Source of the DNA: a virus | DNA length: 29,479 nucleotides | IMG/VR virus record: IMGVR_UViG_3300003322_000121 | Span: 1 to 29,479 of that record | Strand: one strand, 5' to 3' | In this document: piece by piece, positions 3,266-28,306 of the stretch | Position numbering within the stretch: the stretch's first letter is position 1 | How the letters are laid out: the number at the start of each line of letters is the position of its first letter | The notes under the pieces: model-generated | Seen by the model: only the letters and a program-made list of their open reading frames with translations | What the model was told of the DNA's origin: nothing | Databases searched by the model: none | Made by a program: the position numbers and the translations under genes

Positions 3266-4553
3266 GCTTCCTCCAAAGCTGATCCCGGTTTTCTCGGGAG
3301 AAGCTGACACCCGCTGGTCCTGCGGAGGCCGCGGGAGCGCAAAGACGCGCTCGTTCGCCACTATGGCCGCGGTGTACGGCTACCGCTACGGCGCCCAAGG
3401 CATCAGCGGAATCGTCGTCTGCGCGCGCCAGTTCATGAACTCGCTGGCCGATTCGTCGCTCGAGGAGTGCAAGCGCGCGATCGAGGCTGAACCTTGGCTG
3501 AGCGCCTACTACGACGTGGGCGAGAACTACATCAAGAGCCGCGACGGCCGTATCTCGTTCGCCTTCTCAGGGCTGGATCGCAACATCCTGTCCATCAAGT
3601 CAAAGGGCCGCATCCTCGTGCTGTGGGTGGACGAGGCCGAGCCGGTCACCGATGCGGCATGGGACATCGTGATCCCGACGCTTCGTGAGGAGGGCTCGGA
3701 CTGGAACGCCGAGCTGTGGGTGACGTGGAATCCAGCGAGGAAGACGGCGCCGGTTGAATCTCGCTTCCGATACAGCAAAGATCCTCGTTGCAAGGGCGTC
3801 GAACTCAACTGGCGCGACAACCCGAAGTTTCCCGCCATCCTCGAACGCAAGCGGCTCGCGCATCTCGCAGAGCGCCCGGACACCTACGGCCACGTGTGGG
3901 AGGGTGAGTACGCCACGGTCGTGGAGGGCGCGTACTACGCCAAGTGCCTGACCGAAGCGAAGCTCCAGGGCCGTATCGGCAAGGTTGGCCCCGACCCGCT
4001 GATGACTTACAGGGCGTTCGTCGACATCGGCGGGACGGGCGCGAAGGCTGATGCGTTCTCGATGTGGATCGCACAGTTCATCGGGCTCGAAATCCGCGTG
4101 CTCGACTACTACGAGGCCGTGGGCCAGCCGCTGGCGACACACCTCGCGTGGATGAGATCCAAGGGCTACACGCCCGAGCGGTGCCAGATCTGGCTGCCCC
4201 ACGACGGCGCGACGCAGGACAAGGTGCATGACGTGTCCTATGAATCCTCGATGCGTCAGGCGGGCTACACGGTCACCGTCGTGCCGAACCAGGGCAAGGG
4301 CGCAGCGAAAGCGCGCATCGAGGCCGGGCGAAGGTTGTTCCCGTCCTGCTGGTTCGACGAGGAAAAGACCGAAGCCGGTCGCGCCGCTCTAGGCTGGTAC
4401 CACGAGAAGCGCGACGAAGACCGCGGGATCGGTCTCGGCCCTGAGCACGATTGGTCAAGTCACGCGGCAGATGCGTTCGGCCTGCTGTGCATCGCCTACG
4501 AGCCCCCGAAGGCATCCAAGCCCCTCAATATCAACAGGAGATTCGTCCGATGA
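3246..4553 (+). CDS. terL: Large terminase subunit (PBSX/Terminase_3 type ATPase-nuclease)
   Basis: A 435-residue packaging motor protein. The Walker A-like motif GGRGSAKT is at residues 27-34, Walker B LVLWVDEAE has D129 and E130, and the coupling motif VTWNP is at 159-163. The C-terminal RNase H-like nuclease shows three acidic positions: D260 in FVDIGG, D320 in LPHDG, and D402/D409 in the HDWSSHAADAFG segment. This is the normal order and length for PBSX-type large terminases, which cut concatemers and pump DNA through the portal. The ATG at 3246 overlaps the terS frame by 20 bases, while the GGRGSAKT region needs a start no later than this, so it is the natural start. Confidence 0.95.
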   Translation: MQTARVELPPKLIPVFSGEADTRWSCGGRGSAKTRSFATMAAVYGYRYGAQGISGIVVCARQFMNSLADSSLEECKRAIEAEPWLSAYYDVGENYIKSRDGRISFAFSGLDRNILSIKSKGRILVLWVDEAEPVTDAAWDIVIPTLREEGSDWNAELWVTWNPARKTAPVESRFRYSKDPRCKGVELNWRDNPKFPAILERKRLAHLAERPDTYGHVWEGEYATVVEGAYYAKCLTEAKLQGRIGKVGPDPLMTYRAFVDIGGTGAKADAFSMWIAQFIGLEIRVLDYYEAVGQPLATHLAWMRSKGYTPERCQIWLPHDGATQDKVHDVSYESSMRQAGYTVTVVPNQGKGAAKARIEAGRRLFPSCWFDEEKTEAGRAALGWYHEKRDEDRGIGLGPEHDWSSHAADAFGLLCIAYEPPKASKPLNINRRFVR

Positions 4554-6888: not shown

Positions 6889-7198
6889 AGCCGCGATGCA
6901 AAGGGGCGAAGAGGCCTCCCGCATTCTCAACAGCGAACTGTTCACCCGGGCGTTCGAGGACGTGCGAACAGCGCTCCTGAAGCAATGGGAGCAGATGCCG
7001 GTAGGCGACACGGAAGACGCTCAGGACATCCATCGCCGGCTGAAGTGCCTGCAGCAGGTCAAGACCGCTTTGGTGGAGCACATCCGCACCGGTCGGATGG
7101 CCGAGAAGGAGCTTTCCGCGATGGAGAAGGCCCGGCGCGCGGTAAGCGGCGCCATTCATCGAATGAATCCACTTGCACAGGCCAATAGGAACCGTTAA
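6875..7198 (+). CDS. Small conserved structural-region protein downstream of portal
   Basis: A 107-residue protein from ATG 6875, overlapping the end of the portal gene by 14 bases. It is all-helical and charged: AAMQRGEEASRILNSELFTR, then LLKQWEQMPVGDTEDAQDIH and a basic C-terminus. I recall similar short proteins directly after portal or before capsid genes in several phage groups, usually unnamed. It may be a head-assembly factor. No catalytic motif is visible. Confidence 0.6.
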   Translation: MDKHEAAMQRGEEASRILNSELFTRAFEDVRTALLKQWEQMPVGDTEDAQDIHRRLKCLQQVKTALVEHIRTGRMAEKELSAMEKARRAVSGAIHRMNPLAQANRNR

Positions 7199-12734: not shown

Positions 12735-15079
12735 GGACCGTACAGAGTCTCCCGGAGGCCGAGTCCCTCGACGAGGATGCGCTGCTCTATGCGCTTCGTC
12801 CGAACGGGGTCGGCGGGTATGAGGATGTCAAGGTCAAGCGCAAGCACCTTGGTTCCGGAGAAGACGCGGCCGAGGCTGTCGCAGCTGCCGCTGCCGCGCA
12901 GGCCACCGCGAACACCGCTCTGGCCGCTGCCCAGGGTGCTGTTTCAGGCCCGGCTTCTTCCTCCAACAACTCGCTCCCGCTCTGGTCGACAGACAAGACG
13001 CTAAAGAACACGACTCTGACCGGCATCCTGAAGCTGACGGCCGGCGTTGCTGACGTTGCGACTCCGGGGGCGGATCTGCTGACGCCTGACGGCGTGGAGA
13101 TCGCCTCCAACAAGACGCTCATAGCGCCTGCTGTAAGCGATCAGGTCGCAAGCGGAGCATTCGAGCAGCACGGATACGGCCGGACCATCTGGACCGACAT
13201 CCTCACCGGCACGGTCATCAACCCTCACGTGCCGACGTACCGGGCGATCACGGCCGACGTGTCGCTGACCTTCTCGCCGGCCCTGAACAACGGCGAGGAC
13301 GGCGAGCTGCTGCTCAACAACACGTCCGGCGCGGATCACGCTGTCACGGTCAACGGGGCGGGCGGCGGCTTCTATTCCAACTCGCTCGGCCAGCTCGTCT
13401 CCTCGGGCACGTTCACGATCAAGGCGGGCGACGTCCGGCGCATCGGCATCACCAAAGATCCGATCCGCTCGGTCCCGACCTTCTACGGCGAGCAGGACAA
13501 GCCGGCGCCGAACGACTACAACACGGCGGTGCAGGTCGCGTCGGCTGCAGGCACGGTCGACATCTCGAGCAACTCGAGCCTCAACGTCGCGATGACGGGC
13601 ACGCAGCAGGTGACGGGATTCACCGCGGCCCCCGCAGGCACGACCCGCTACCTGTACATGGTCGATGGCCCGAAGTTCGCGCCGGGCACGGATTTCATTG
13701 TCCAGGGCGGCTACACGCTCAACCTCGACGCGTCTGCGACTGCTACGGCGCTGGCACTGGACAACGCCGGGAAGTGGCTGCTGAGCGATGTCGCCCGGGC
13801 CGACGGCGAGCCGGTCAACGGCTTCATCACGGAGCAGCAGATTGCCGCGGCGGCCACAGTGAGCCTCGCGACGCTGCCCGGCAAGCATGTCCGGGTCACG
13901 GGCTCCTACAGCGGCAACATCACCAGCTTCGGCGCGCCCGCGGATGGCAAGACCTACATCCTGCGCTTCGTGACGAGCGGGTCTCCGACGATCGTTCACG
14001 ACCTGACGAAGATCGTGCTCCCAGGTGGGCACAACTGGGTCATCGAGGCTGGCGATCAGGCGCTGGTGCGCTACCTCACCAACCTGGGCGCGTGGCTCGT
14101 CATACCGCAGCCCATCAGCGGCCAGGCGATGGAAGGGTTCGTCGGCGCGCAGACCATCGCATCGGCTGCGACCTGCGACCTGTCGACCGTGCGCGGCCAC
14201 AGCGCCTATGTCACTGGCACGACCGGCATCACGAGCTTCGGAACGCCGACGCGCGACCTGTTCCGGATCGTGCAGTTCCAAGGCGCTTTGACCATCACGC
14301 ACGGGTCGGCGCTGCAACTACCAGGCTCGGCCAACTACACCACAGCAGCCGACGAGAGCCTGTTCGCCTACTACTCGACCGCGCTCAGCAAGTGGTACGT
14401 GTTCGGCGTGCAGCCTCGCAAAACGCGGCCCGATGGCTTCGTCTATCGGGGCGCCCTCGCGAGCATCCCGGCGGCGAGCGGGTACGTCGTCGGCGACCGG
14501 TCGATGATCGATTCGGGCTTGACCGTCAACGGCATCACGCTGCAGCCATTCGTTCTGCAAGTGACGCAACTGTCGGACGGCACGAAGGTTTGGAAGCCGC
14601 CGTTCAAGCAGACGCTCATCAGCCGTGCGGCCCTCCACGCCAGTCCGCTCGGCTCTGGCACTGCTGCAGGCACTTCGCCCAATGCGACCTGTGTGCTGCT
14701 GTCCGATGCCGGCACTTTGCCCGCCGGCCTGCTCACCGTGTCGGGCCTGCGCTTCTGGGTTGACGCCCTCGTGCTGCGCGGAACGGTGACAGCCACTGCC
14801 GACGCGACGTGCAAGGTCGGCGGCAGTGTTGTCGCGCGCGCGAACAGCATGGCGAACAACGCCAACGCTACTGGCCGCATATCGGGCGGGCTGTGGGTCA
14901 TCGACTCGAGCAACCAGATCTCAACCGGCATGCTGCCGGCCGGTGGTGTTGGCAACGCCGCGTCGAGCCTCGCGCTGACGCTCAGCGGATCAAGCGCTCA
15001 GACGGTGAGCTTTGAGATCGCCAGCGCGACCGTGAACGACACGTTCACCCTCGACTCGTACGCCTTCGGGATCGAGTGA
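12731..15079 (+). CDS. Tail fibre protein with three tandem beta repeats
   Basis: A 782-residue protein, ATG overlapping the previous stop (ATGA). Residues 1-40 (SLPEAESLDEDALLYALRPN and VKVKRKHL) form a short anchor seen in other fibre proteins, then an Ala-rich helix at 45-72. Three related repeats of about 90 residues lie at about 265-355, 366-462 and 471-562. Each goes from T(V/C)xL or TVDIS, through VTGxxxITSFGxP, a hydrophobic strand and LPGxxxxxxxAxD, to a terminal WxV or KW strand. The C-terminal 200 residues form another beta domain ending TFTLDSYAFGIE. It is probably a trimeric host-recognition fibre. Confidence 0.75.
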   Translation: MRTVQSLPEAESLDEDALLYALRPNGVGGYEDVKVKRKHLGSGEDAAEAVAAAAAAQATANTALAAAQGAVSGPASSSNNSLPLWSTDKTLKNTTLTGILKLTAGVADVATPGADLLTPDGVEIASNKTLIAPAVSDQVASGAFEQHGYGRTIWTDILTGTVINPHVPTYRAITADVSLTFSPALNNGEDGELLLNNTSGADHAVTVNGAGGGFYSNSLGQLVSSGTFTIKAGDVRRIGITKDPIRSVPTFYGEQDKPAPNDYNTAVQVASAAGTVDISSNSSLNVAMTGTQQVTGFTAAPAGTTRYLYMVDGPKFAPGTDFIVQGGYTLNLDASATATALALDNAGKWLLSDVARADGEPVNGFITEQQIAAAATVSLATLPGKHVRVTGSYSGNITSFGAPADGKTYILRFVTSGSPTIVHDLTKIVLPGGHNWVIEAGDQALVRYLTNLGAWLVIPQPISGQAMEGFVGAQTIASAATCDLSTVRGHSAYVTGTTGITSFGTPTRDLFRIVQFQGALTITHGSALQLPGSANYTTAADESLFAYYSTALSKWYVFGVQPRKTRPDGFVYRGALASIPAASGYVVGDRSMIDSGLTVNGITLQPFVLQVTQLSDGTKVWKPPFKQTLISRAALHASPLGSGTAAGTSPNATCVLLSDAGTLPAGLLTVSGLRFWVDALVLRGTVTATADATCKVGGSVVARANSMANNANATGRISGGLWVIDSSNQISTGMLPAGGVGNAASSLALTLSGSSAQTVSFEIASATVNDTFTLDSYAFGIE

Positions 15080-16170
15080 TGTCGCGCATCATCGACTTCC
15101 ACAGGCGCGTGCAGGTATTGCGCAGCGGAACGGTCATTGTGCCGCCGCCGCCTCCTCCCCCGCCACCGCCTCCCGGTCAGTACTACATCGTCGGCCAGAA
15201 GATCTACGCGCCGGGTGGCGCCGAGTTCATTCCCATGGGGATGAACTACGGGCACAACCAGCTTTATGGGGCTGCAGATCCCGTCGAGGACAAGACGATG
15301 GGGGCCAATGCCGTGCGAATCATCATGCGCGAGCGGCAGGGGCCGGTTGTGGACATCCCGGACGGTGACCCGACCGGCTCGGGGCATTTCGACCCCGCCT
15401 ACTACACGGACCTGACCGATATCGTCGTCAACGCCGCGTACGCGCAAGGGCTGGCGATCGATCTCGCGTTCGACTCGAACTGCGACATCAACTGCCACCC
15501 AGACGCCGAGTGCTTCTTCGACGGCAGCGGAACGGCGCAGAACGTCTACAACAACGCTGTGCTCAGAGCGCGGTTCAAGTCGCGCACTGTCGAGGCTGTC
15601 GACCGCTACAAGGACAAGATCGTCTTCGTCGAGAACGGCGTGGAACCAGCCAACGCGGACAGCACGATCACCGCCACGCAGATTCAGGACTTCCAAGAGG
15701 AAATGATGGACGCGATCCTTGCGATTGCGCCCAATGTCCTCTTCATCGTCGGCGGCCGGGCCTACCAGAACGGCCGCGTCGGCAGTTGCTACCGCGCCTC
15801 GTGGGCCACGAAGTACCCGAACAAGATCATCCTTACGTGTGATTTCCTGTCGGGCGCGATCACCAACGGTGGAACGGCTGGATTCGACACGCGATTCGCG
15901 AACCTCACCGGTGCTCGCACGACGTTCGGCGTGCCGGTGATCTGCCAGCAGCTGGGCGACAACATCTCCGACGACACCGCAAACGATGACCTCCTGAAGC
16001 ACGCGTTCGAGGCGCACAGGCTAGCTGGTGTCGGCGCGCTCTATTGGGAGAAGGTCACGCCTTCATCTACGTCGTTCGGCTGCTACTACACGAGCACCGG
16101 GCCGCGGGTGAAGAACAACACCCGATACACCACCTGCTCTGACGCATTTCATGCGGTAACTGGACCCTGA
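15076..16170 (+). CDS. GH5-like TIM-barrel protein with poly-proline tether
   Basis: A 364-residue protein; GTG 15076 and ATG 15079 are adjacent possible starts. Residues 1-22 may be an anchor, residues 23-33 are eleven prolines, and residues 36-364 look like a GH5/cellulase-type barrel: YYIVGQKIYAPGGAEFIPMG, GANAVRI (R81), LAIDLAFD, VFVENGVEP (candidate acid/base E190), APNVLFIVGG, PVICQQLGD and GALYWEKV. The strand-7 nucleophile glutamate of GH5 (usually in a VGEFG-like segment) appears here as Gln 291/292. Acid/base context is VEP rather than NEP. It may be a carbohydrate-binding, catalytically weak or altered barrel. Polyproline suggests an extended arm. GH5 assignment is pattern-based. 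Confidence 0.6.
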   Translation: MMSRIIDFHRRVQVLRSGTVIVPPPPPPPPPPPGQYYIVGQKIYAPGGAEFIPMGMNYGHNQLYGAADPVEDKTMGANAVRIIMRERQGPVVDIPDGDPTGSGHFDPAYYTDLTDIVVNAAYAQGLAIDLAFDSNCDINCHPDAECFFDGSGTAQNVYNNAVLRARFKSRTVEAVDRYKDKIVFVENGVEPANADSTITATQIQDFQEEMMDAILAIAPNVLFIVGGRAYQNGRVGSCYRASWATKYPNKIILTCDFLSGAITNGGTAGFDTRFANLTGARTTFGVPVICQQLGDNISDDTANDDLLKHAFEAHRLAGVGALYWEKVTPSSTSFGCYYTSTGPRVKNNTRYTTCSDAFHAVTGP

Positions 16171-16187
16171 ACGAGAAGGACTGACGA

Positions 16188-17285
16188 ATGACGACGGTAG
16201 CCGCAGGCTCATCGAGCACCTACACATTCACCGGCTCACAGAGCGTATCGGTCACGCTCGACCCGGGAGAAACCGCTCTGGTGGAGATCCGCCGGGGCGG
16301 GGTGATCATCTCCTCGCAGCAGGTGACGGGGAGCCGAACCCTCGGCCCGTACATCTCCGGGGACGTGATGAGCCTCACGGCGATTCGCGGGACGGTGGAC
16401 TACTCCGTTTCCGACGCGACCTCTGCCGCAACGGTGGCGGCGCCATCGAACCCAACGGCATGGTTCAAGTTCGACGAAGGAACCGGGACGACGGTTTCCG
16501 AGTACTTCACGACCATCTCCGCGACGGTCGGCGGCACGACGACGGGGATCTGGGGCTCTGCGCCTGGAGTCACGTTCAACGGCACGGACAACCAGATCCC
16601 GTTCACCGCGACCTCGGGGCTTCTGCGCCAGATCATGGGCCTGTCCACCCTCACGGCGGGTGTCGAGCAGTTGGTGATCTGGATGCTGATCTCTCATCCA
16701 GCTCCCATCACGGCGGGGGCGCTGTTCTGGTGGGGCCTGTCGAGCGAGACGACGATGGGCGGCTGGGGCCTGCATAGCCTCGTCTCGAACAAGCTGCTCC
16801 AGTGGCGCCAGCGTGGCGTCGGGTCGTCAGCCGTGCAGCAGGTGGCCGTCAATTCCACGCTGCGCGCCGCAGGTTTCGAGGGCTCGACCACGACGAACAC
16901 CCGCTCGGCCCTGGCGCTCGAGATCATGCGCTCCGCGGCGTACCCGGGGTATCTCGAGATCACCGGGTACAAGAAGAACGTCGCCGTCGCCGGTGCGCTG
17001 ACGCAGAACGATTGCTTCTGCCAGTCGATCATCGAGGCGCACGACTCCTCGACGGCTCTGCCGAACTACAACACATCCGGAGCCTTGACCTTCGGGGCGC
17101 AGCCGACGACGAACCAGAGCACGTTCAACTCGCGCCTTCCCTCCGGGTGGGCTCTGGCGAACGTCGGCTTCCAGCGACGAAAGACCGCCTCCCGAGGAAT
17201 CGGTGGCCGGATCGTGCGCGACATCTACACCAACTCCACCGCGGGAAGCCACTACCTGTTCCCGGCGTCGGCACTCGGAGCCTGA
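16188..17285 (+). CDS. Fibre protein with LamG/lectin-like domain
   Basis: A 365-residue protein with AAGGA seven bases upstream of the ATG. The first 60 residues (SSSTYTFTGSQSVSVTLDPG, LVEIRRGGVIISSQQV) are a compact beta domain that could attach to the virion. From about residue 90 (TAWFKFDEGTGTTVSE) the strand pattern resembles concanavalin/LamG-like sugar-binding domains: ATVGGTTTGIWGS, GVTFNGTDNQIPFT, LVIWMLI. The protein ends RDIYTNSTAGSHYLFPASAL. Carbohydrate binding is the likely role. No enzymatic motif is visible. It is probably another adhesin of the cassette. Confidence 0.55.
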   Translation: MTTVAAGSSSTYTFTGSQSVSVTLDPGETALVEIRRGGVIISSQQVTGSRTLGPYISGDVMSLTAIRGTVDYSVSDATSAATVAAPSNPTAWFKFDEGTGTTVSEYFTTISATVGGTTTGIWGSAPGVTFNGTDNQIPFTATSGLLRQIMGLSTLTAGVEQLVIWMLISHPAPITAGALFWWGLSSETTMGGWGLHSLVSNKLLQWRQRGVGSSAVQQVAVNSTLRAAGFEGSTTTNTRSALALEIMRSAAYPGYLEITGYKKNVAVAGALTQNDCFCQSIIEAHDSSTALPNYNTSGALTFGAQPTTNQSTFNSRLPSGWALANVGFQRRKTASRGIGGRIVRDIYTNSTAGSHYLFPASALGA

Positions 17286-17288
17286 ACC

Positions 17289-18398
17289 ATGGCATGGAAC
17301 ATCACCTACACGGCCTGCGTCTACCACGATCAGCCGGCAAACACGAAGTACATCGTCGATGCCAAGCCGATGGCTCACTGGCTGCTCGGAGATCACGGCT
17401 ACTTCACGAAGGACTGGAGCAAGTTCGGCGTCACCGATGCGGCTCTGGCGGTCGCCACCGCGTCATCGGCGTGGCTGACCAAGATGCAGTTGTTCCTCGG
17501 CCAGACGGGCTGGCAGGAGTTCTTGGCGCTGCGGAACAAGGGCACGAAGGTCTATTGGATGCCGGACGACCACGGATGGGGCGGCGACAACTGGGACCAT
17601 ACGGTCACTCGCGCGAACCAGAACGACACGATTGGCGCCTCCACGTCGGCAGATGTTCTGACGCACTGGACGAACGGATGCGCTGGGCACGACTTGATCC
17701 GCGCGGCCTACTTCGACAACCCGGCATCTCCGGGCGTGAACGGTGACATCCCAAAGAACATGGTCGGCACCGCGGCCGCGACGGACTACAAGATCCAGTA
17801 TTTCGTCAAGGACTTCGGCTCGGGTGGCGTGGAGGGCGGGAACCTCATCCGCACGATCACCATCGACTGCATCTCCTACAAGAACAGCCAGAGCGACACC
17901 GACAACAACCTGAAGACGATGCTCGGGCCGGTGCAGAAGCAGTGGCTCTACAACAAGATCCGCGAAGCTGTTGCCCAAGGCTTCAAGCAGATCTGGATCA
18001 TGTCGACGAAGGATCTGTTCAACGTCGACAACCTGGATGGCTGGTTCAAGTACGCCACCGAGCGCGACGAGATCCTGTCCACGATCCACGCCAACGGCTG
18101 GCCGGTGGTGTGGCACTGCGGCGACCGGCACTCACCCCACGTGGGGATCGCCTCCACGCGGGCAGGGGATGCGTACAACGCGCTTTCCCTCTGCCCGACA
18201 TCCTTCGCGGTGCCGTTCGACGTGATGACCGCCTACGCGCAGAACGTCTGGCAGATCCGCACGAACAGTCAATACGTCTTCGGGAAGATCACCGTCGACG
18301 AGTCGTCGAGCAGCGTCCGCCATTCCGTCGTCGACGCCGTGAACGGTGCTGAGCTGTACGGCGTCAATGTGCCATTCGGGTCGGGTATGCCTGCATGA
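17289..18398 (+). CDS. PhoD-like metallophosphatase in the tail-fibre cassette
   Basis: A 369-residue protein, GGAG eight bases before the ATG. PhoD-type metallophosphatase motifs occur in order: WLLGDHGYF (31-39), YWMPDDHGWGGDNWD (89-103, matching the DDHxxxxN block), LGPVQKQWL (212-220, the LGxxQxxWL block) and VVWHCGDRH (273-281, the GDxH metal site). PhoD enzymes use a binuclear metal centre to hydrolyse phosphodiesters or monoesters. Here there is no signal peptide and no fibre-like repeat, and the gene lies between a LamG-like fibre and the gp10-like hub, so a virion enzyme acting on phosphate-containing surface glycans is the best guess. Intracellular action cannot be excluded. Confidence 0.7.
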   Translation: MAWNITYTACVYHDQPANTKYIVDAKPMAHWLLGDHGYFTKDWSKFGVTDAALAVATASSAWLTKMQLFLGQTGWQEFLALRNKGTKVYWMPDDHGWGGDNWDHTVTRANQNDTIGASTSADVLTHWTNGCAGHDLIRAAYFDNPASPGVNGDIPKNMVGTAAATDYKIQYFVKDFGSGGVEGGNLIRTITIDCISYKNSQSDTDNNLKTMLGPVQKQWLYNKIREAVAQGFKQIWIMSTKDLFNVDNLDGWFKYATERDEILSTIHANGWPVVWHCGDRHSPHVGIASTRAGDAYNALSLCPTSFAVPFDVMTAYAQNVWQIRTNSQYVFGKITVDESSSSVRHSVVDAVNGAELYGVNVPFGSGMPA

Positions 18399-19753: not shown

Positions 19754-19971
19754 GCCTGAACGGTCAATCTGCACGGGTACCCATCGGCTACGCCACGCTC
19801 GGAGGGCAGCAGGTGCCGGTCTACATCGACACGTCCTGGTACACGTACCTCGTCCCATCGCTCACGCAGCAAGTTGGAGGGACATCGACGCTCTCGCAGG
19901 TCGCGGCCCAAGTTTCTGCTCTTCAGGTTGCTCTCGCCGAGCTTTCCGCTTCCATGGTGGACGTGTACTGA
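19750..19971 (+). CDS. Small tail-region hypothetical protein
   Basis: A 73-residue protein, ATG overlapping the gp10-like stop (ATGA), with the next gene overlapping its own stop. The N-terminal half is beta-like (GYATLGGQQVPVYIDTSWYT), then YLVPSLTQQVGG. The C-terminal 25 residues (VAAQVSALQVALAELSASMV) have heptad character and could form a coiled coil. Similar short proteins near phage tail genes are usually unnamed. It could be a trimerising connector. Confidence 0.55.
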   Translation: MSLNGQSARVPIGYATLGGQQVPVYIDTSWYTYLVPSLTQQVGGTSTLSQVAAQVSALQVALAELSASMVDVY

Positions 19972-20540
19972 TGCAGCACTTCATGCGCATCTCCACGGGC
20001 GTCGACACGACCCCCTTGCTTCTTTCCATCATGCGCCGGCCGGAACTGTGGAAGGAAGACACCTACCTGCGCGACTACCCGCAAGGGCCGTTCGGGGAGG
20101 TGGAGTCGATCATCCTCAGGTTCCCCCCTCGTTCAGTCCATGAGACCGAGGAGGCGATGCGCCAGCATCTATCGGGAGTGGATCAGCACGAATGCGTCGA
20201 CCAGCCCGTCTACAAGCTGCTCCCAGAAGCCAGGAGCCTTGTCATGAACCTCATGCACTACGTCGGAGGTGAGAGGCTTGGCAGGGTGATGATCAACAAG
20301 ATCAAGCCGGGCGGCGTGATCTTCCCTCATGCGGATACCCCGTCTCATGCGGAGTACTACTCCCGCTTCCATATCGTGCTCAAGAGCGAGCCCGGCGTGA
20401 TCTTCCGGTGCGCGGATGAGCGAGCCTACTTCGAACCTGGATCTGTGTTCTGGTTCAACAACAAGCTGGAGCACGAAGTGCTGAACAACAGCAACGACGA
20501 CCGGATCCACATGGTTTGTGACATCAGGACGAGCCGATGA
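19971..20540 (+). CDS. Aspartyl/asparaginyl beta-hydroxylase-like 2-oxoglutarate dioxygenase
   Basis: A 189-residue protein, ATG overlapping the previous stop. The cupin-type oxygenase motifs are present: IFPHADTP (the first His and Asp metal ligands, H-A-D), SRFHIVLKSEPGVIFRC, then the second half FEPGSVFWFNNKLEHEVLN (the distal His in LEHEV) and RIHMVCDIR, where Arg would bind 2-oxoglutarate. This order matches the Asp/Asn beta-hydroxylase (Asp_Arg_Hydrox) group. Substrate is unknown. It is coupled to a GNAT immediately downstream, so both could modify virion or host proteins. Confidence 0.75.
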   Translation: MQHFMRISTGVDTTPLLLSIMRRPELWKEDTYLRDYPQGPFGEVESIILRFPPRSVHETEEAMRQHLSGVDQHECVDQPVYKLLPEARSLVMNLMHYVGGERLGRVMINKIKPGGVIFPHADTPSHAEYYSRFHIVLKSEPGVIFRCADERAYFEPGSVFWFNNKLEHEVLNNSNDDRIHMVCDIRTSR

Positions 20541-20986
20541 GCGCCTACGCTGTTGAACGCTGGCGCGACATCAAGAGCGAAATGCTCCCGATGCTCGTCG
20601 AGCACTGGAAAGAAGTGGCGCTGAACCATGCCGACGTTCCGCTGGACATCGACGAAGAACGATATGACGGCCTGGATGCGGTGGGGGCGCTGCACATCCT
20701 GACCGTCCGCCGAGCCGGAAAGCTCATCGGCTACCACGTCGCGATCGTCAGCGGACATCTCCACTACAAGAGCACGCTGCACGGCATCACGGACGTGTAC
20801 TACATCGCTCCCGAGCATCGTCATGGGATCACCGGCATGCGCATGTTCCAGGCGGTGGAGTCGGAACTGAAGAAGCTGGGCGTCAGAAAGCTGTTCACCG
20901 CAACCAAGCTGCACATGGACCAAGGCCCGCTGTTCGAGCGCCTGGGCTATCGGCCGGTGGAACGGTTGTACGCGAAGTTGATTTGA
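20537..20986 (+). CDS. GNAT-family acetyltransferase
   Basis: A 149-residue protein, ATG overlapping the hydroxylase stop (ATGA). The GNAT core is clear: ILTVRRAGKLIGYHVAIVSG, DVYYIAPEHRHGITGMRMF (the acetyl-CoA motif A region), EVES-like VESELKKLGVRKLFTATKLH and GPLFERLGYRPVERLYAKLI. A HYKSTLHG stretch precedes the central strand, a pattern I recall in phage-encoded GNATs beside tail genes. Substrate is unknown: a small molecule, a virion protein or a host factor. The C-terminal GYRP signature confirms family membership. Confidence 0.8.
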   Translation: MSAYAVERWRDIKSEMLPMLVEHWKEVALNHADVPLDIDEERYDGLDAVGALHILTVRRAGKLIGYHVAIVSGHLHYKSTLHGITDVYYIAPEHRHGITGMRMFQAVESELKKLGVRKLFTATKLHMDQGPLFERLGYRPVERLYAKLI

Positions 20987-20996: not shown

Positions 20997-21971
20997 ATGG
21001 TCGCCGCAGCAATCGTAGGGTCTGCCGTTGTAGGTGGAGCGGTATCCGCCTATGGCGCCAACAAGGCCGCCGGAGCGCAGAGGGACGCAGCAAATCAGGC
21101 CGATGCGACCCAGCGCTACATGTACGACCAGACCCGCGCGGATCAGGCGCCGTACCGGGAAGCCGGCTACGGCGCGCTTTCGCGGATGTCGACGCTACTC
21201 GGGCTGAGCGGCGGGAACGAGAACTCACGGTACTTCGGCAGTCTGAACCGCCGGTTCACCGGCAAGGATCTGGCAAGCGACCCCGGATACCAGTTCGGCC
21301 TGAATCAGGGCTTGGACGCGGCGCAGAACAGCGCAGCCGCAAGGGGCGGCTTGTACTCAGGCGCAACCCTCAAGGCCCTGACCCAGTTCGGCAACGACTA
21401 CGCGACGACGAAGTTCGACGACGCCTTCAACCGCGACATGGCGCAGAAGACGAGCCAGTTCAACCGGCTCGCTTCTGTCGCAGGACTTGGGCAGACGAGC
21501 CTCGGTCAGGTGAACACCGCCGGCATGAACGCAGCGAACAACATCAGCGCCAACCAGATCGGGGCAGGGAACGCTAGGGCCGCGGGGTATCTATCGACCG
21601 CCAACGCCATCGGCAACGGCATCAACCAGGGGACGGCTTGGTGGCTCAACAGCGGGCAGACGAACCCGCTGACCAGCCCCAACGCTTCCGGGGCGTACGG
21701 GAACGTCTATGGCGATGGGGCGGGTATCGATCCCTACGGCTACCTCGGCGGCGCCGGGACGGCTGGCGACTACTCGGATGCTAGGTTGAAGACGGACATC
21801 CGCAGGGTCGGCACGACCGATGAGGGGCTGCCGATCTACATCTACCGCTACAAGGCCGGCGGCCCGTACCGCATGGGCGTGATGGCGCAGGAACTCGAGG
21901 CTGTCGATCCGGAAGCGGTGACGTACGACGCGCACGGCCTGCGCATGGTGGATTACACGAAGGTGCGGTGA
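20997..21971 (+). CDS. Ejection protein with C-terminal S74-type self-cleavage/chaperone domain
   Basis: A 324-residue protein with GAGAGGGA upstream of the ATG. The N-terminus (AAIVGSAVVGGAVSAYGANK, AAGAQRDAANQADATQRYMY) is an Ala/Gly-rich hydrophobic region typical of injected internal proteins. The centre is Ala/Asn/Gln-rich (ISANQIGAGNARAAGYLSTA). The last 65 residues form a peptidase S74-like intramolecular chaperone: SDARLKTDI has S260 with K265 five residues later, as in the endosialidase Ser-Lys cleavage pair, followed by YIYRYKAGG, MGVMAQELEAVDPEAV and MVDYTKV. S74 usually ends tailspikes. The first of three ejection-type genes. Confidence 0.7.
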   Translation: MVAAAIVGSAVVGGAVSAYGANKAAGAQRDAANQADATQRYMYDQTRADQAPYREAGYGALSRMSTLLGLSGGNENSRYFGSLNRRFTGKDLASDPGYQFGLNQGLDAAQNSAAARGGLYSGATLKALTQFGNDYATTKFDDAFNRDMAQKTSQFNRLASVAGLGQTSLGQVNTAGMNAANNISANQIGAGNARAAGYLSTANAIGNGINQGTAWWLNSGQTNPLTSPNASGAYGNVYGDGAGIDPYGYLGGAGTAGDYSDARLKTDIRRVGTTDEGLPIYIYRYKAGGPYRMGVMAQELEAVDPEAVTYDAHGLRMVDYTKVR

Positions 21972-23215
21972 TGCCGATCGATACCAGCCTGTACCAGAAC
22001 CTGCTTCGGCCCCCGAAGTCCGTCGCGGACTACCAAGCCGACATCCAGCAGGCCGAAGGCAACGCCCTGGCGCTGCAGCAGAACAAGATGAACCTCCTCG
22101 CAGCAAAGCAGGCGATGGAGGACGACCAGAGGCTTCGCGAGCTGTACGCCCGGCCTGACTTCGACCCGCTCTCTCAATCCGGCGTGAGCGACGTGATGCG
22201 CGTGTCTCCTAAGGCGGGCATGGCGCTGCAGAAGTCGATCCTCGACGCGCAGGAGGTGAAGGCCAAGACCACGAAGGCGCAAGCGGAGGCCGAGAAGGAG
22301 CAACTGCAGACCGCCATCGCCAAGCAGGCGCAGATCGCGCAGGCCGCAGGTGCTGCGGTGGATCAAGCGTCGTGGGACAGGGGCTTGCAGATCGCGCAGT
22401 CACTTGGGGTTGACATCTCGAACGTGCCGCGGCAGTTCGATCCGCGTGTTGCGGAGCAGATCCGCAATCAGGCGATGACCGGCGCGCAGCAGCTGGAACA
22501 GTACTGGAAGCAGAAGGGCTTCGACCAGCAGGAGCATTTCCACCAGGACGACGTCGCAACGACACGCCGGGGACAGGACATCACCGCGGCGACGGCTCGG
22601 CGCGGCCAGGACATGGTGGACGCAAGGTCGAGGGAGCAGAACACGCTGACCAAAGAGGCCGGCCGGTCTCAGGTTATCGACACGCCGAACGGCGTGATCA
22701 TCGTTGACAAGGGCACGGGCACCTCCAAGCCGGTTGTCGGGTCAGACGGTGTGCAGGCGCAGGGCCACAACTCGGCCATCATCCCGGCGCAGAAGATGGC
22801 TGACCAAATCGGCGCCAACATCAGCATGGCGCGCGATCTGCTGCCGAAGGCAACAGGGTCAGGGATCGGCGCGAGGGTCGACCAAGCCATGAATTTCGTT
22901 GGCAAGACCAACGAAGGCGACATCGCCGCGAGCCAACTCGAAACGCTTGCTGGTTGGCTCACCTCCAACGTGCCGCGCATGCAAGGCCCGCAGTCCGACA
23001 AGGACACGGCGCTTTACCGGCAGATGGCCGCGCAGGTCGGGGACAGGACGAAGCCGGTTTCCGTCAGGCTGAAAGCTCTCGACACGCTCGAGGGCCTCCA
23101 GCAGAAGTACGCGGAGGCCAACCACGTCATGTACCAGCCAGCAAAGAGCAAGTCCAACCTGACGCCGGCTGAGCAGGCGGAACTCGAGGCGCTGCGCAAG
23201 CGGTTCGCACGCTGA
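21971..23215 (+). CDS. Ejection/internal virion protein 2
   Basis: A 414-residue protein from ATG 21971 (TGATG overlap); GTG 21968 is a weak alternative. It is Gln/Ala-rich and helical: ADYQADIQQAEGNALALQQN, then KAKTTKAQAEAEKEQLQTAI. The region QDDVATTRRGQDITAATARR is strongly charged. The C-terminal half (GSGIGARVDQAMNFVGKTNE, LETLAGWLTSNVPRMQGPQS) is a segment I recall from podoviral DNA-ejection proteins. It probably leaves the capsid with the DNA and helps form a channel through the envelope. Assignment is from position and composition. Confidence 0.65.
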   Translation: MPIDTSLYQNLLRPPKSVADYQADIQQAEGNALALQQNKMNLLAAKQAMEDDQRLRELYARPDFDPLSQSGVSDVMRVSPKAGMALQKSILDAQEVKAKTTKAQAEAEKEQLQTAIAKQAQIAQAAGAAVDQASWDRGLQIAQSLGVDISNVPRQFDPRVAEQIRNQAMTGAQQLEQYWKQKGFDQQEHFHQDDVATTRRGQDITAATARRGQDMVDARSREQNTLTKEAGRSQVIDTPNGVIIVDKGTGTSKPVVGSDGVQAQGHNSAIIPAQKMADQIGANISMARDLLPKATGSGIGARVDQAMNFVGKTNEGDIAASQLETLAGWLTSNVPRMQGPQSDKDTALYRQMAAQVGDRTKPVSVRLKALDTLEGLQQKYAEANHVMYQPAKSKSNLTPAEQAELEALRKRFAR

Positions 23216-24837
23216 TGGACGACCTGGAAGAACTGCAGTCCCTACGCCGGCTGGCTGAGCTCGAAGCCAAGGCCGCCACCCCAGCAGGCAAGACGCTCGA
23301 CCCGGCGGCCGAGTACGACAAGCTGCGCCAGCAGGGCAGGGAACAGGACGAAGGTCTGCTCCGCTCTGCTGCTGGTATCGGGGCAACGCTCCTGAAGCCT
23401 GTTCGCTGGGCATCGGATGCCATCGTGCCGCCGAAGAACGGCGAACTGAACCCCGTCTCGTCGTACCTCAACCGCATCGACGATTCCTTGAAGTGGCTGG
23501 ACGACAGGAACAAGGACAGCGGGCGCTACACGGCCGCGAAGGTGACGGGCGACATCCTCGCGACGGCACCGGTCGGTGGGGCGCTGGCGGAAGTCGCGCA
23601 AGGCCTGAAAGCCGGGCCGGCAGTCGTCAACGCTCTGCGATCAGGGGGGTTCGAGACCGGGCTGAATCCCACGACAGCGCTCGGCAAGGTTGGCGATCTC
23701 GCTCTGCGCGCTGGCGCCGGGGCAACGACGGGAGGTGTTTCCGCTGGCTTGATCGACCCAAGTCAAGCCAAGACGGGCGCGGTCATCGGTGGCGCGCTTC
23801 CGGTCAGCGTCAAGGCGGCCGGGGCGGCGGGTAGTGCCATCGCCAACACCCTCAAGGGCGATGTGTCTCCAGAGGTGGCCGACCTTGCCATGCGCGCTAA
23901 GCAACTTGGCATCGACATACCGGCCGATCGGATCGCAAACAGCAAGCCGCTCAACGCCACCGCGGCGGCGCTGAACTACGTCCCCTTCAGTGGCCGGCAG
24001 GCGGTCGAGGCCCGCATGCAGGACCAGTTGAATCGAGCGGTGTCGCGGACGTTCGGTCAGGACTCGACGAATGTCACGCAGGCGCTACGGAAGGCAGACG
24101 ATGCGCTGGGGGCGAAGTTCGATGCGTTCCTGCAGTCCAACAAGGTCTACGTCGACAAGACCTTCCTGCACGACCTTGCAGAGTCGGCGAACCAGGCCAC
24201 GAAGGAGCTTGGCGCTGACGGCGCAGCCGTTATCAAGAACCAGGTCGATGAGATCGTTTCAAAGGCGGCGAACGGCGAAATCGACGGACAGGCGGCCTAC
24301 AACATCAAGAGGGTGCTCGACCGCATCGGCAGGCGCAACAGCCCGGAGGCCGGGTATGCGCTGGACCTGAAGCGCAAGCTGATGGACGCGCTGAACCGAT
24401 CTGTCGGGCCTGAGAGCGCTCAAGCATTCGGTGAACTGCGGAAGCGGTACGGGAACATGCTCGAGCTTCAGAAGCTGGCCACGAACGGCGCCGAGGGCGA
24501 CATCTCCATCGCGCGCCTCGCGAATCTGAAGAACATCGGCAGCGACGATCTACAGGAGTTGGCAGACATCTCGGCCCAGTTCCTGAAGCCGCGTGAGGGC
24601 CAGCACGGCGCGGCTCAGCGGGCCTTGGCCGGCGGAATCACGCTATGGCTGACGGGGCCGAAGGGGTTGGTGGCCGGGGCGACCGCGGGGAGGGCTGCGA
24701 ATGCTTTCCTCGACAGCGATCTGGCGCGCCGCGTTGCGCTCGGTCAGACGAACCCGGAACTTCTCAATCTTCTTCGAGAGACCACGCCGGTCCTTCTTCG
24801 TCCGGCGCCGGTTCTCTCGGCGGAAGGAACTCCTTGA
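23215..24837 (+). CDS. Ejection/internal virion protein 3
   Basis: A 540-residue protein, ATG overlapping the previous stop (ATGA). It has long Ala/Gly-rich helices in the first 200 residues (SAAGIGATLLKPVRWASD, GGALAEVAQGLKAGPAV, GAVIGGALPVSVKAAGAAGS), likely membrane-active, then a helical body (VDEIVSKAANGEIDGQAAY, LDRIGRRNSPEAGYALDLKR). It ends in a hydrophobic stretch (GGITLWLTGPKGLVAGA). This is typical of the largest podoviral ejection protein. Its last 74 bases overlap an antisense gene, and codons there (several CTT, CGT) are less GC-rich than in the rest. Confidence 0.65.
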   Translation: MDDLEELQSLRRLAELEAKAATPAGKTLDPAAEYDKLRQQGREQDEGLLRSAAGIGATLLKPVRWASDAIVPPKNGELNPVSSYLNRIDDSLKWLDDRNKDSGRYTAAKVTGDILATAPVGGALAEVAQGLKAGPAVVNALRSGGFETGLNPTTALGKVGDLALRAGAGATTGGVSAGLIDPSQAKTGAVIGGALPVSVKAAGAAGSAIANTLKGDVSPEVADLAMRAKQLGIDIPADRIANSKPLNATAAALNYVPFSGRQAVEARMQDQLNRAVSRTFGQDSTNVTQALRKADDALGAKFDAFLQSNKVYVDKTFLHDLAESANQATKELGADGAAVIKNQVDEIVSKAANGEIDGQAAYNIKRVLDRIGRRNSPEAGYALDLKRKLMDALNRSVGPESAQAFGELRKRYGNMLELQKLATNGAEGDISIARLANLKNIGSDDLQELADISAQFLKPREGQHGAAQRALAGGITLWLTGPKGLVAGATAGRAANAFLDSDLARRVALGQTNPELLNLLRETTPVLLRPAPVLSAEGTP

Positions 24838-24907
24838 TGAAGCCCCAGATGAACGCCCCGACGATGAGCACGACGGCCTTCAAGATCACCCAGTCGATGT
24901 AATCCAT
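24764..24907 (-). CDS. 47-residue antisense single-pass membrane protein
   Basis: The minus strand carries an ORF from 24907 to 24764. MDYIDWVILKAVVLIVGAFI begins a single transmembrane segment (about residues 6-26), followed by IKEFLPPREPAPDEEGP and an acidic end. Nearly all hydrophobic codons end in G or C, as in coding sequence here. Its ATG is preceded on the same strand by GAGGAGGT with five bases of spacing, the best Shine-Dalgarno in the window. It fills the 68-base gap between the last ejection gene and the tailspike and overlaps the ejection gene's end. In P22 this place holds immI with superinfection-exclusion genes, so exclusion or signalling is possible but unproven. Confidence 0.6.
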   Translation of the reverse strand: MDYIDWVILKAVVLIVGAFIWGFIKEFLPPREPAPDEEGPAWSLEED

Positions 24908-27188
24908 GGCCTACCTCCTCGAAAACATCCCCGTCCGCCATCTCGACAACAACGGCAACCCGATCTCCGGCGTTCGTCTGTACACCTACGCGGCCGGCAC
25001 GACGACCAATCTTGCCACATACACCGACGCCACCGGCGCAACTGTGCTGCCGAATCCGATCGTCGCGGACTCACAGGGCTACTTCCCGCAGATCTGGGGC
25101 GGATCGGCGGCCTACAAGTTCGTGGCCAAGAAGCAGGACGGCACGATCGTATGGCAGCGCGACAACGTTCGCGCGGCAATCGCCGACATGCTGGGAGAGC
25201 TCGCGTCCACATCCGTCGGGAAGGGGGCTGCGCTCGTCGGGTTCAGGCTCAACACGGTTTCCGGCGCCCTGCGCAACCTGAACGACCGCCAACTTGAGAA
25301 TCTCTCAATACTCGACTTCGCAGGCGCAGATCCGACCGGACAGAATGACATCTCTGCCGCGCTTCAGGCTGCGATAGATCGTGCCGCAAGCCTGTCGTCA
25401 AGTTTGTTCCAGACGCCTGGGATTGGCATCTATTTCCCGATCCTCCAATCCACGGCTACGGACGGCTATAGCGGGACGTACTACATCAACGCAAACGTGA
25501 CGGTTCCGTCGACGCTTGACGGACTTGGCCTGTACGGACACCCCGGTAAAGGTCCGCGCCTGGTGTTCGGGCCGAGCGGCAAGATCACCGTCGGCGGCGT
25601 AGATGCGGCAGATCCGACACATCGGTTCGTCATGGCGCATCTGATGTGCGTTGCACAAGACGACACCAGAACCGACACGAAGTGTCTTGAACTGCAGACC
25701 TGCAGCGCCGTTCAAATCTACGGCTGCATATTCAGTGGGTTCAATATCGCGATCGACGCCTATCGCGTCACGCGATCGGTGATCAGGGATAACCACTTCT
25801 ATAACTCCGCGCGCACGACGAACGCCGCCACTGCCGCCATTCGACTTGGCGGGACATCTGCCGGGCGCTGCGCTGGCGTTCATATCGTGCATAACGAGTT
25901 CATCGGCAACGCCGCTGAGCCGAGCATGGTCGCGGCGCAGGTGTTGGTGAATGCGGTAGATGGCTTGTACCTCGATACGAACCACTACACCCAGCAAGTC
26001 GACGCTTTGCGGGTCGAGCCGTTGGGAACGTCGGTCGCGAACTTCATCAGCGACATCAAGGCGGACAACGAGTACTACGACAACCCGGCCACTGATGGGC
26101 GCAACGTAGCCATTACTGGGACGGTGGCCGCGGGCGGCACGTACCAGAATATCGAGTTCACTGGATGCCTTTTCCGCGGCGCGCTCTCGGCGAAGAACTG
26201 CATTCGTGTGGACATCGCGGATGCCGGCGGCTTCAGCTCTGGCGGCAAGCGGGTAGAAAACATCCGCATCAACGGCGGAACGCTCAGGCAGGCGAATGAC
26301 ACTGCGCTTCTCGCGCTTGGGAACTCTGCTGGAAAGCTGGAGGTGTACGGCCTCTCGGTGCAGGGCGCCATTCTCGAGCGGAACAACTCTGCCGGTACGG
26401 CTGCAGCCTCATGCGCTTCAGTGCAAGTCGAGGGCTTCACTTGGCTCGGGAACACCGTGCTACCGGACACGGTTGCATCGACAAACCTTGTCTCCGTCAA
26501 CCTCTCGCTTGCGGAGTCCGGTAAACCATCATTCACCTACGGACGCAATGACTACTCCAAAGCGAACAACACAGGCGATGCTTACAACCTGACCTCAACC
26601 GTCGGGGCGCAGGTATCAGGCGGTGGCGACATCTTCCCTGGCGCCGGGTTGGACATCGATCAGGTTTACAAGACATCGACGACCGGGAAAAGCCCGAAGA
26701 TCATCTGGCAGATGTTCATCTCTGGAGACGGGCAGCTAGGCCAAGTGAAAGCACTCACGCAGGGCTGCAGCACTTCGGGCACCGCTGGTTCCGTGCGCGC
26801 GATCTATGAGAACCGCGCGGGCTTCTACCGTGAATCTGCCGGCAATCTGGCGCTCACTGGAGCTTCTGAAATATTCGCGCACTCCGTCATCACCGGCCAC
26901 AGCACGCCGGTGACGTTGACACGTCTTACAGGCCCCGCCTGGGCGGCCACCACTGCGCTGACCGCGGGCGATCGCGTCGTTTCGGGTGGCCGCATGTATC
27001 TCGCCATGACGAACGGCACCACGGGCGGATCGGATCCCACACACACCGCTGGCGTCGTAACGAATGGGTCTGTTGATCTTGGGTACGTCGCGGACGAGGC
27101 TCCGAATACGGTTGCCATCGTCGTTTGTGGTCAAGGGTCGACGGACATGAGCTGGTCTTCATGGGTTCAAGCCATAGTCACGCCATGA
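24906..27188 (+). CDS. Tailspike 2, beta-helix, P22-type head-binding N-terminus
   Basis: A 760-residue protein. Residues about 8-95 (IPVRHLDNNGNPISGVRLYT, AAGTTTNLATYTDATG, GYFPQIWGGSAAYKFVAKKQ) form a head-binding domain like those of podoviral tailspikes. Residues about 130-560 show beta-helix repeats (IYGCIFSGFNIAIDAYRVTR, VIRDNHFYN, VHIVHNEFIGN, VENIRINGGTL). The C-terminal 90 residues (WAATTALTAGDRVVSGGRMY, LAMTNGTTGGSD) look like a separate carbohydrate-binding module, ending WVQAIVTP. No clear Shine-Dalgarno precedes the ATG at 24906. The trailing bases after its stop carry a remnant of another spike's last codons. Confidence 0.8.
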   Translation: MAYLLENIPVRHLDNNGNPISGVRLYTYAAGTTTNLATYTDATGATVLPNPIVADSQGYFPQIWGGSAAYKFVAKKQDGTIVWQRDNVRAAIADMLGELASTSVGKGAALVGFRLNTVSGALRNLNDRQLENLSILDFAGADPTGQNDISAALQAAIDRAASLSSSLFQTPGIGIYFPILQSTATDGYSGTYYINANVTVPSTLDGLGLYGHPGKGPRLVFGPSGKITVGGVDAADPTHRFVMAHLMCVAQDDTRTDTKCLELQTCSAVQIYGCIFSGFNIAIDAYRVTRSVIRDNHFYNSARTTNAATAAIRLGGTSAGRCAGVHIVHNEFIGNAAEPSMVAAQVLVNAVDGLYLDTNHYTQQVDALRVEPLGTSVANFISDIKADNEYYDNPATDGRNVAITGTVAAGGTYQNIEFTGCLFRGALSAKNCIRVDIADAGGFSSGGKRVENIRINGGTLRQANDTALLALGNSAGKLEVYGLSVQGAILERNNSAGTAAASCASVQVEGFTWLGNTVLPDTVASTNLVSVNLSLAESGKPSFTYGRNDYSKANNTGDAYNLTSTVGAQVSGGGDIFPGAGLDIDQVYKTSTTGKSPKIIWQMFISGDGQLGQVKALTQGCSTSGTAGSVRAIYENRAGFYRESAGNLALTGASEIFAHSVITGHSTPVTLTRLTGPAWAATTALTAGDRVVSGGRMYLAMTNGTTGGSDPTHTAGVVTNGSVDLGYVADEAPNTVAIVVCGQGSTDMSWSSWVQAIVTP

Positions 27189-27216
27189 ACAGGTGCGCTT
27201 TCACTCAGGACAGATG
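27189..27216 (+). repeat. Vestigial C-terminal codons of a tailspike (near copy of 12698-12725)
   Basis: 28 bases immediately after the tailspike 2 stop match 12698-12725, near the 3' end of tailspike 1, at 25 positions. In the frame of the copy both read QVRFHSGQM, and all three mismatches are third-codon synonymous (TTC/TTT, TCC/TCA, GGG/GGA). The segment is out of frame with the current tailspike 2. It therefore looks like the end of an earlier tail protein left behind after replacement of the coding sequence upstream. Confidence 0.85.
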
Positions 27217-27219
27217 GTG

Positions 27220-27429
27220 ATGGAAGAACGACACGAGACGCTCGTAGCAGTCACAAAGGGCGCCTCGGTGTGGGCCGCCGTAGGGATCACGTCATGGAGC
27301 GAAGCCGCAGCGGCGGCTGCTTTCTGCTACACGGTGATCCTGATCTGCGAATGGGTATGGAAGCGGCTCCTCCGGCCGATGCTTGAGCGGCGCGGGGTCA
27401 TCGCGCCGAAGGCGAAAGCCGAGGAGTAG
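27220..27429 (+). CDS. Holin-like small membrane protein
   Basis: A 69-residue protein from ATG 27220, with AGGA nine bases upstream; GTG 27193 and ATG 27214 in the same frame would add the remnant codons of the old tail protein. N-terminal EERHETLVAVTKGASVWAA, then one clear hydrophobic segment about residues 27-46 (SEAAAAAAFCYTVILICEWV), and a basic C-terminal tail (KRLLRPMLERRGVIAPKAKA). One or two membrane passes with a charged tail and position before the endolysin fit a class II holin or antiholin. The homologous family could not be confirmed. Confidence 0.6.
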   Translation: MEERHETLVAVTKGASVWAAVGITSWSEAAAAAAFCYTVILICEWVWKRLLRPMLERRGVIAPKAKAEE

Positions 27430-27432
27430 CCG

Positions 27433-27657
27433 ATGGATCGCCGCCGAGTGCCGAAGTCCCATGCGCTGCTGGTGGACGAGATCAACGCGCTCGACCAGCC
27501 AGACAAGATGCTGCTGTCCCTTCGCTTCGAACACAGCATTCTTGACCTCGACATCCTGGCCCGGATGCTGACGCTCGCCGGCTACCCGATGACCGAAGCG
27601 CAGGCCGAGCGGCAACTGAACAGCGCGCTGGCGCAGGTGATGGGAGAGCTCCGGTGA
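27433..27657 (+). CDS. Small conserved protein between holin and endolysin
   Basis: A 74-residue protein with GAGGAG six bases upstream of ATG 27433. It is helical and soluble: KSHALLVDEINALDQPDKM, LLSLRFEHSILDLDILARML, TEAQAERQLNSALAQVMGEL. The middle resembles, at low level, the helix-turn-helix of sigma-factor region 4 (LRF then a short helix then a second helix), but the spacing is not convincing. Its stop overlaps the endolysin GTG start. The function is unknown. Confidence 0.6.
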   Translation: MDRRRVPKSHALLVDEINALDQPDKMLLSLRFEHSILDLDILARMLTLAGYPMTEAQAERQLNSALAQVMGELR

Positions 27658-28094
27658 ACCTAAGTCCGCACTTCACGCTTGACGAGATGCTCGTCACCAC
27701 GCACAGGGAGATCGACAACAGCCATCCTCCTGCCGAGGTGGTCGAGGCGCTGAAGCGCACGGCGCGCGGCCTTGAGACGGTGCGAGCTCGCCTCGGCGGG
27801 ATGCCGATCATCATCACCTCTGGATGGCGGTGCCCTGAGCTCAACGCAGCCGTTGGCGGGCAGAAGACGAGCCAGCACCTGATCGGCGAGGCCGTGGACT
27901 TCCTCTGTCCACGCTTCGGCCGCCCGCTGGACATCGCCTACGCGATCCGCGACACGGCCGAGATCGACTTCGACCAGGTAATCGCCGAGTTCACCAGCCG
28001 CGACAACGGCGGATGGGTCCACATCAGCTTCAGCCGCCACCCGCGCCGACAGGCTTTCCGCATCGAGCGGGCCGGCGCCATGCCCCTGCATTGA
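27654..28094 (+). CDS. Endolysin, M15-type D-Ala-D-Ala peptidase
   Basis: A 146-residue protein, GTG 27654 overlapping the previous stop (GTGA). It has the M15A zinc-peptidase signature: TSGWRCPELNAAVGGQKTS, then SQHLIGEAVDF with zinc ligands H75 and D82, and WVHISF with H123. The N-terminal LSPHFTLDEML segment is the usual start of M15-type phage endolysins. It would cleave peptidoglycan stem peptides after holin action. No signal peptide or wall-binding domain is present, so it should depend on a holin. The length is normal for a Gram-negative phage endolysin. Confidence 0.9.
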   Translation: MNLSPHFTLDEMLVTTHREIDNSHPPAEVVEALKRTARGLETVRARLGGMPIIITSGWRCPELNAAVGGQKTSQHLIGEAVDFLCPRFGRPLDIAYAIRDTAEIDFDQVIAEFTSRDNGGWVHISFSRHPRRQAFRIERAGAMPLH

Positions 28095-28096
28095 CC

Positions 28097-28306
28097 ATGA
28101 AGCTGATCCCCGAATGGCGCCGCGCCTGGCGCATGTTCAGCGTGCAGATGATGGCCGCCGCAGCCGCTTTCCCAGCGCTGTGGGCGAGCCTGCCTGACGA
28201 GGCGAAGGCGGCGTTGCCGCACGGCGTGCAGGTCTGGATCCCCACCGTGCTGCTGGTGTGCGGGATCGTGGGGCGGCTGGTCAAGCAGCCGAAGGTGAGC
28301 GGGTGA
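28097..28306 (+). CDS. Second holin-like two-TM protein
   Basis: A 69-residue protein starting two bases after the endolysin stop. After KLIPEWRRAWRMFSVQM, a hydrophobic segment lies at about 15-31 (MMAAAAAFPALWASL), then a turn with DEAKAALPHGV and a second segment about 46-61 (VWIPTVLLVCGIVGRLV), with a basic end. I recall this MKLIPxWRxAWRxFS-type protein in lysis regions of many proteobacterial phages, annotated as holin or lysis protein. No Rz/Rz1-like spanin was found in the window. It could be the true holin, with the 27220 product as its partner. Confidence 0.65.
   Translation: MKLIPEWRRAWRMFSVQMMAAAAAFPALWASLPDEAKAALPHGVQVWIPTVLLVCGIVGRLVKQPKVSG

Follow-up and report, generated by a model that had tools for sequence, protein, structure and literature searches.

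What is a short minus-strand frame doing in a stretch of phage DNA whose other genes run the opposite way? The question is raised by IMG/VR virus record IMGVR_UViG_3300003322_000121, of which positions 1 to 29,479 were analysed (this whole stretch of 29,479 nucleotides is referred to as the window). Between the gene for the last DNA-ejection protein and the tailspike gene it carries a minus-strand frame of 47 codons (24764-24907). An earlier note, made from the letters alone, had singled this frame out as a small membrane protein gene, possibly for superinfection exclusion or lysogenic conversion, and had placed everything else from position 3 to 28306 on the plus strand, which holds for every convincing gene from 153 to 28306. 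The frame is almost certainly a real gene and, as comparison with its relatives indicates, is a member of an undescribed family of small membrane proteins.

A conserved minus-strand gene

The gene reads on the minus strand from an ATG at 24907-24905 to a stop ending at 24764, and its product is MDYIDWVILKAVVLIVGAFIWGFIKEFLPPREPAPDEEGPAWSLEED. The Shine-Dalgarno (SD) sequence which had been reported five bases before the ATG is indeed present (GAGGAGGT, 24920-24913). One could suspect a chance antisense open reading frame (ORF) held open by GC-rich composition, since the window contains 168 minus-strand frames of at least 30 amino acids (aa). However, a strong SD precedes only seven of these, and among the eight SD-preceded minus-strand starts in the window that of the small gene alone has the hydropathy of a membrane helix (2.37; the next reaches 1.63). 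Together with the AlphaFold2 model, a single helix covering residues 3-27 (pLDDT >90 across the first 20 residues), this value bears out, as a prediction, the clear transmembrane helix described by the earlier note. The G/C-ending codons had also been correctly recognised: outside the overlap with the plus-strand gene, the three codon positions have GC fractions of 0.48/0.26/0.96, as is usual for coding sequence in a genome of 64% GC, and within the overlap the values are 0.75/0.50/0.54. The acidic, proline-rich C-terminal tail is found in only some family members, that of the window being among the longer ones.

As library searches are nearly blind at such a protein size, relatives were gathered through the ejection gene (23215-24837), a choice which is itself blind to the small frame. 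Searches of phage records by tblastn gave chance matches only (E 1-10) with the 47-aa protein and nothing with two relatives of 30-32 aa; one IMG/VR match to the 47-aa protein (L002) was rejected as a chance C-terminal peptide in an unrelated locus. The ejection gene yielded 14 IMG/VR loci first, then 76 by profile, plus six in bacterial genomes. Thirteen of the first 14 loci have a minus-strand ORF of 30-60 aa at the equivalent place and the remaining one (L012) a shorter ORF of 28 aa. Overall, the small protein is present in 76 of the 78 loci that hold the 3' end of the ejection gene, where its gene is convergent with the ejection gene and usually overlaps its stop. This count includes two loci by hidden Markov model (HMM) match: L093, because the ejection frame is broken, and L071 (4337-4432, minus strand), where the start codon is apparently ATA, a rare start, after AGGAG. 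A few members score below 15 bits and were accepted partly on position, and some contigs are near copies, leaving about 73 distinct sequences. Conservation of the frame in relatives, which the earlier note had proposed as a check, strongly supports a real small membrane protein gene and places the frame beyond chance. No convincing family match occurs elsewhere in those loci, the best outside the slot reaching 11.0 bits (L090) and 7.7 bits. In L090 a possible relative of 41 aa (2759-2884, minus strand; 11 bits) faces another gene.

Is it the protein that is conserved, or only the DNA? Pairs were selected on the identity of their ejection proteins and compared in a DNA alignment of the non-overlapping part; positions 1, 2 and 3 of the minus-frame codons show 200, 182 and 381 differences over 731 sites each (chi-square P 2e-21); for the window and its partner L085 the differences are 5, 4 and 15 (P 0.003). 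This third-position excess implies that the protein itself is selected, and not just the DNA or an antisense RNA. The overlap was omitted because the C-terminus of the ejection protein, which is also encoded there, in part dictates that the C-terminal TGR stays conserved, and a dN/dS of 0.11 was discarded as a measure of selection, being biased by the choice of pairs by protein identity, in favour of the codon-position test. Comparison of the relatives shows the frame to be conserved and under purifying selection. With the codon-position bias and the promoter and SD evidence, conservation refutes a chance ORF as far as sequence allows, and we regard that explanation as hardly credible.

Members of the family are single-helix membrane proteins of 27-52 residues (median 30) with the consensus M-[DE]-[YF]-x-[DE]-[FY]-x-x-[WIL]-K, followed by about 14 hydrophobic residues and [YW]-G-[FI]-x-x-G-[LIF]-T-G-R. 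The C-terminal flank is more basic than the N-terminal flank in 53 members and less so in 6 (P 3e-8), and the predicted orientation is N-terminus out and C-terminus in. The family is absent from Pfam, no significant match by several members was obtained in PHROGs, NCBIfam or PADLOC, the best single matches being weak (E-values 0.008-0.03), and the open-licence papers searched contain no earlier description of the family. Gene finders usually skip antisense frames of 30 codons, so that the family libraries searched lack a gene which nearly every member of the group carries. The family was not found in phages BcepC6B, BPP-1, EBPR podovirus 2, Sulfitobacter pCB2047-A, RHph_Y1_10, Mae-JY35, KLEP18-1, ppBeUSDA76-2 and PAE2, nor in the fetched stretches of P22, Sf6 and MW202713.

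Expression signals and carriers

Among 73 distinct upstream regions, 18 have a TAnnnT hexamer separated from the start codon by exactly 6 nt, where the other positions predict 0.76 (P 7e-20). This is the spacing of a -10 box from which the transcript would begin on the start codon itself, giving a leaderless mRNA; the lambda cI message from PRM is a known leaderless prophage message. When a gap of 5-8 nt is allowed, 26 members are of the TAnnnT type, none of which has an SD, and an SD is present in 26 others (Fisher P 3.5e-7). The window copy is of the SD type, and no sigma-70 promoter was recognised upstream of it. A CCATGG palindrome (24904-24909) is common to the ATG of the tailspike gene (24906) and that of the small gene (24907); the former has no recognisable SD and the antisense start has a perfect one. 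The two genes therefore stand back to back, with the antisense SD inside tailspike codons 3-5, and any promoter of the window copy would have to lie in the tailspike gene.

On the plus strand, 36 of 77 loci have a terminator-like hairpin no more than 90 nt past the start codon of the small gene, as does none of 77 control stretches. Combined with the convergent overlap in nearly all loci, this could mean that the transcript matters more than the protein, minus-strand prophage transcription interfering with, or ending, leaky late transcription where the ejection gene ends. We consider this very unlikely, since the third-position bias, the dN/dS of 0.11 (pairs chosen by protein identity) and the conserved helix show that the protein is selected; moreover, no plus-strand terminator is present in the window itself.

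An integrase is encoded in 24 of 33 records and an S24-type repressor in 17 of 33, where absences may reflect fragments, and most carrier phages look temperate. The bacterial carriers are three Pseudomonas, Noviherbaspirillum humi, a Polaromonas metagenome-assembled genome (MAG) and another Pseudomonadota MAG, and the family profile has one match in each of these six host genomes. In 399 Pseudomonas and 399 Burkholderiales genomes, four copies were found in total: three in known carriers and a new one (L118), which likewise faces an ejection gene. No unlinked family match was found in these 798 sampled genomes, with at most 18 candidates per genome scored, so that weak unlinked copies could have escaped. 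This linkage bears on whether the product is a lysogenic-conversion membrane protein with some other target (envelope, transport or host fitness) which merely occupies the usual cargo slot. P22-like phages do use the interval from the last ejection gene to the tailspike for cargo genes, but cargo in such slots usually varies between phages, and here a single family fills 76 of 78 loci. As no family member was ever seen apart from the ejection gene, a general conversion role is the less likely, and we rate it as highly improbable.

Candidate function and setting of the gene

The earlier note had likened the site to immI of P22. The slot was rightly chosen and the gene name was not: in P22 (NC_002371) the slot holds sieA, on the minus strand, 22 bp past the stop of ejection gene 16 and convergent with it, and immI proper (mnt, arc, ant) adjoins sieA. 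SieA is an inner-membrane protein that blocks DNA delivery, and its escape mutations map to the C-terminal regions of ejection proteins gp16 and gp20 (PMC10883804). In our analysis, the chances are about even that the small protein is likewise a prophage-expressed inner-membrane protein which would block DNA entry by phages with similar ejection proteins. Such a SieA-like role is the best single explanation because of the strict ejection-gene linkage, the membrane nature of the protein, its temperate carriers and the prophage-type promoters.

In this model the prophage would make the small protein while its late genes are silent, and the protein would insert with its short acidic N-terminus outside and its basic C-terminus inside. 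Once ejection proteins arrive from a phage whose ejection apparatus is related, the small helix could pack against their inner-membrane part and stop the assembly or opening of the DNA conduit, and the second genome would be kept out. After induction, late plus-strand transcription would cross the small gene in antisense and may turn it down. If the protein does jam ejection proteins in this way, it would be a very small tool for studying the passage of DNA through the inner membrane in short-tailed phages, an open question even for P22.

Several observations weigh against a SieA-like role. An hhalign comparison of the family alignment with P22 SieA (type A) gave a probability of 0.9% over 19 columns, and the C-terminal cytoplasmic motif of SieA, FxRYPxEAxxFNK, is absent from all members in an alignment read by eye; the small protein is not a SieA homologue by sequence. 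The window's own copy lacks a recognised upstream promoter. Near-universal occurrence in the group is unusual for an accessory exclusion gene and is a mild argument for a core role. It would better suit a function in the lytic cycle, such as assisting in the timing of lysis, protecting the membrane or dealing with ejection proteins, and linkage to the ejection gene could then mean handling of ejection proteins before packaging. This seems unlikely, as the gene lies on the strand opposite to the late operon, has its own sigma-70-like promoter box in many relatives, and shares the window with holin-like and endolysin genes already present on the plus strand.

A membrane helix of 30 residues is also typical of membrane-active toxins and regulators. 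Length, single helix and charged ends resemble TisB- or Ldr-like toxins, and the late transcript is naturally antisense to the small gene; a peptide of the type I toxin or abortive-infection kind might thus damage or depolarise the membrane once freed from late antisense control or upset by a superinfecting phage. Yet 14 members gave no match to a Pfam toxin family up to E 10 and none to a PADLOC family, linkage to an ejection gene is not expected for a general toxin, and a constitutive leaderless promoter without an antitoxin would cost the lysogen. We therefore find a toxin decidedly unlikely.

Returning to the SieA-like role, a wider version of it can be offered only tentatively, the balance lying somewhat against it. 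A large group of temperate podoviruses would owe cognate self-exclusion to this family, whose members, in many cases translated from leaderless prophage mRNAs, would be minimal inhibitors of the ejection conduit with just one helix, and the convergent slot would be a general site for such inhibitors, occupied in other phages by unrelated membrane proteins. Small-protein identity goes up with ejection identity (Spearman 0.27, non-independent pairs) yet drops faster, which could be fast divergence or exchange and is by itself no proof of matching specificity. Support is weak for the idea that the slot of every such phage contains a membrane ORF of some kind: hydrophobic ORFs on the minus strand occur in 4 of 10 slots and at 14 of 142 control gene ends (P 0.02), in a test that misses P22's own sieA. 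As a practical rule, the opposite strand directly after the last ejection gene deserves inspection.

Other occupants of the slot were also seen. Where the family is absent, L101 has a different hydrophobic frame of 62 aa in the convergent position (3931-4119, minus strand) whose ATG follows TAGGAT at a distance of exactly 6 nt, consistent with an analogue having taken the place of the family; in the other exception, L090, an ORF of 282 aa with a C-terminal membrane segment faces the ejection gene (6332-7180, minus strand). At L124:20795-20998 (minus strand), L123:36803-37033 (plus strand) and L125:33630-33824 (minus strand), small hydrophobic ORFs that are unannotated and unrelated converge on a late ejection-like gene, the phages concerned being EBPR podovirus 2, Sulfitobacter phage pCB2047-A and Bradyrhizobium phage ppBeUSDA76-2, respectively. 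For more distant phages such as the first two, the comparison with control gene ends makes such occupants of the slot no more than suggestive.

The features of the region are collected in Table 1. Of the two upstream ejection-module genes, the first (20997-21971) matches PHROG 598 'DNA ejection' (E 7e-41) and carries an S74 chaperone domain (Pfam PF13884), and the second (21968-23215) matches PHROG 33352, whose function is not known in PHROG. Elsewhere in the window, the interval between the stabilisation-protein gene and the ejection genes (19851-20986) contains a gene of the aspartyl/asparaginyl beta-hydroxylase-like kind (PF05118, E 4e-15) and, after it, one for a GNAT acetyltransferase. 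Among the late genes, a cellulase (GH5) domain and a PhoD-like phosphatase domain are encoded at 15076-18398, an odd cargo amid structural genes, and at 27193-28306 an M15 peptidase endolysin gene is flanked by two separate holin-like genes (PHROG 21780; PHROG 1356/DUF7940).

Table 1. Coordinates of the small gene, its parts and its neighbours in the window
Feature	Position	Strand	Basis
Small membrane protein gene (almost certainly real), 47 codons, ATG start, TGA stop	24764..24907	-	open frame; conservation in 76/78 relatives; third-position substitutions
SD GAGGAGGT, 5 nt 5' of the small-gene ATG; within tailspike codons 3-5 on the plus strand	24913..24920	-	sequence
Predicted helix, residues 3-27, containing the membrane-spanning segment	24827..24901	-	AlphaFold2; hydropathy 2.37
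74-nt overlap with the ejection-gene 3' end; codes for acidic, proline-rich C-terminal tail	24764..24837	-	frames; alignment
Last DNA-ejection protein gene, 540 aa; convergent partner of the small gene in all relatives	23215..24837	+	PHROG 26400 'DNA ejection protein', E 2.8e-36; alignment
Tailspike/tail-fibre gene, without recognisable SD of its own	24906..27188	+	sequence; family matches
Two upstream ejection-module genes: 20997-21971 (S74 chaperone domain), 21968-23215	20997..23215	+	family matches

Comparison with known systems

Like the type I toxins of the TisB, Ldr and Fst families, the family combines some 30 residues with a single hydrophobic helix; unlike them, it has no Pfam match and is tied to one phage gene, and its members are not free-standing loci with an antitoxin RNA. 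The window gene is opposed in orientation to the late genes, as are accessory ('moron') prophage genes, but the family is not sporadic. HK97 gp15 and similar injection-blocking exclusion proteins (cited in PMC10883804) are prophage-encoded and block DNA entry, as the small protein would if our model is right, although they belong to other phage types and other gene positions, and are likened here by description only.

The closest parallel is SieA of P22 (Lederbergvirus, types A, B and C). Both are membrane proteins (the small one by prediction) of temperate short-tailed phages, encoded between the last ejection gene and the tailspike gene in convergent orientation and with their own promoter (here a promoter-like box in many relatives). 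In contrast to the single helix of the small protein, SieA has 164 aa and several predicted helices, and whereas members of the family often start leaderless and occur almost throughout their group, sieA occurs in a third of P22-like phages (22 of 66; PMC10883804). Two SieA types that are only 24% identical act alike, and its authors found it hard to see how interaction with such diverse ejection proteins is maintained (PMC10883804).

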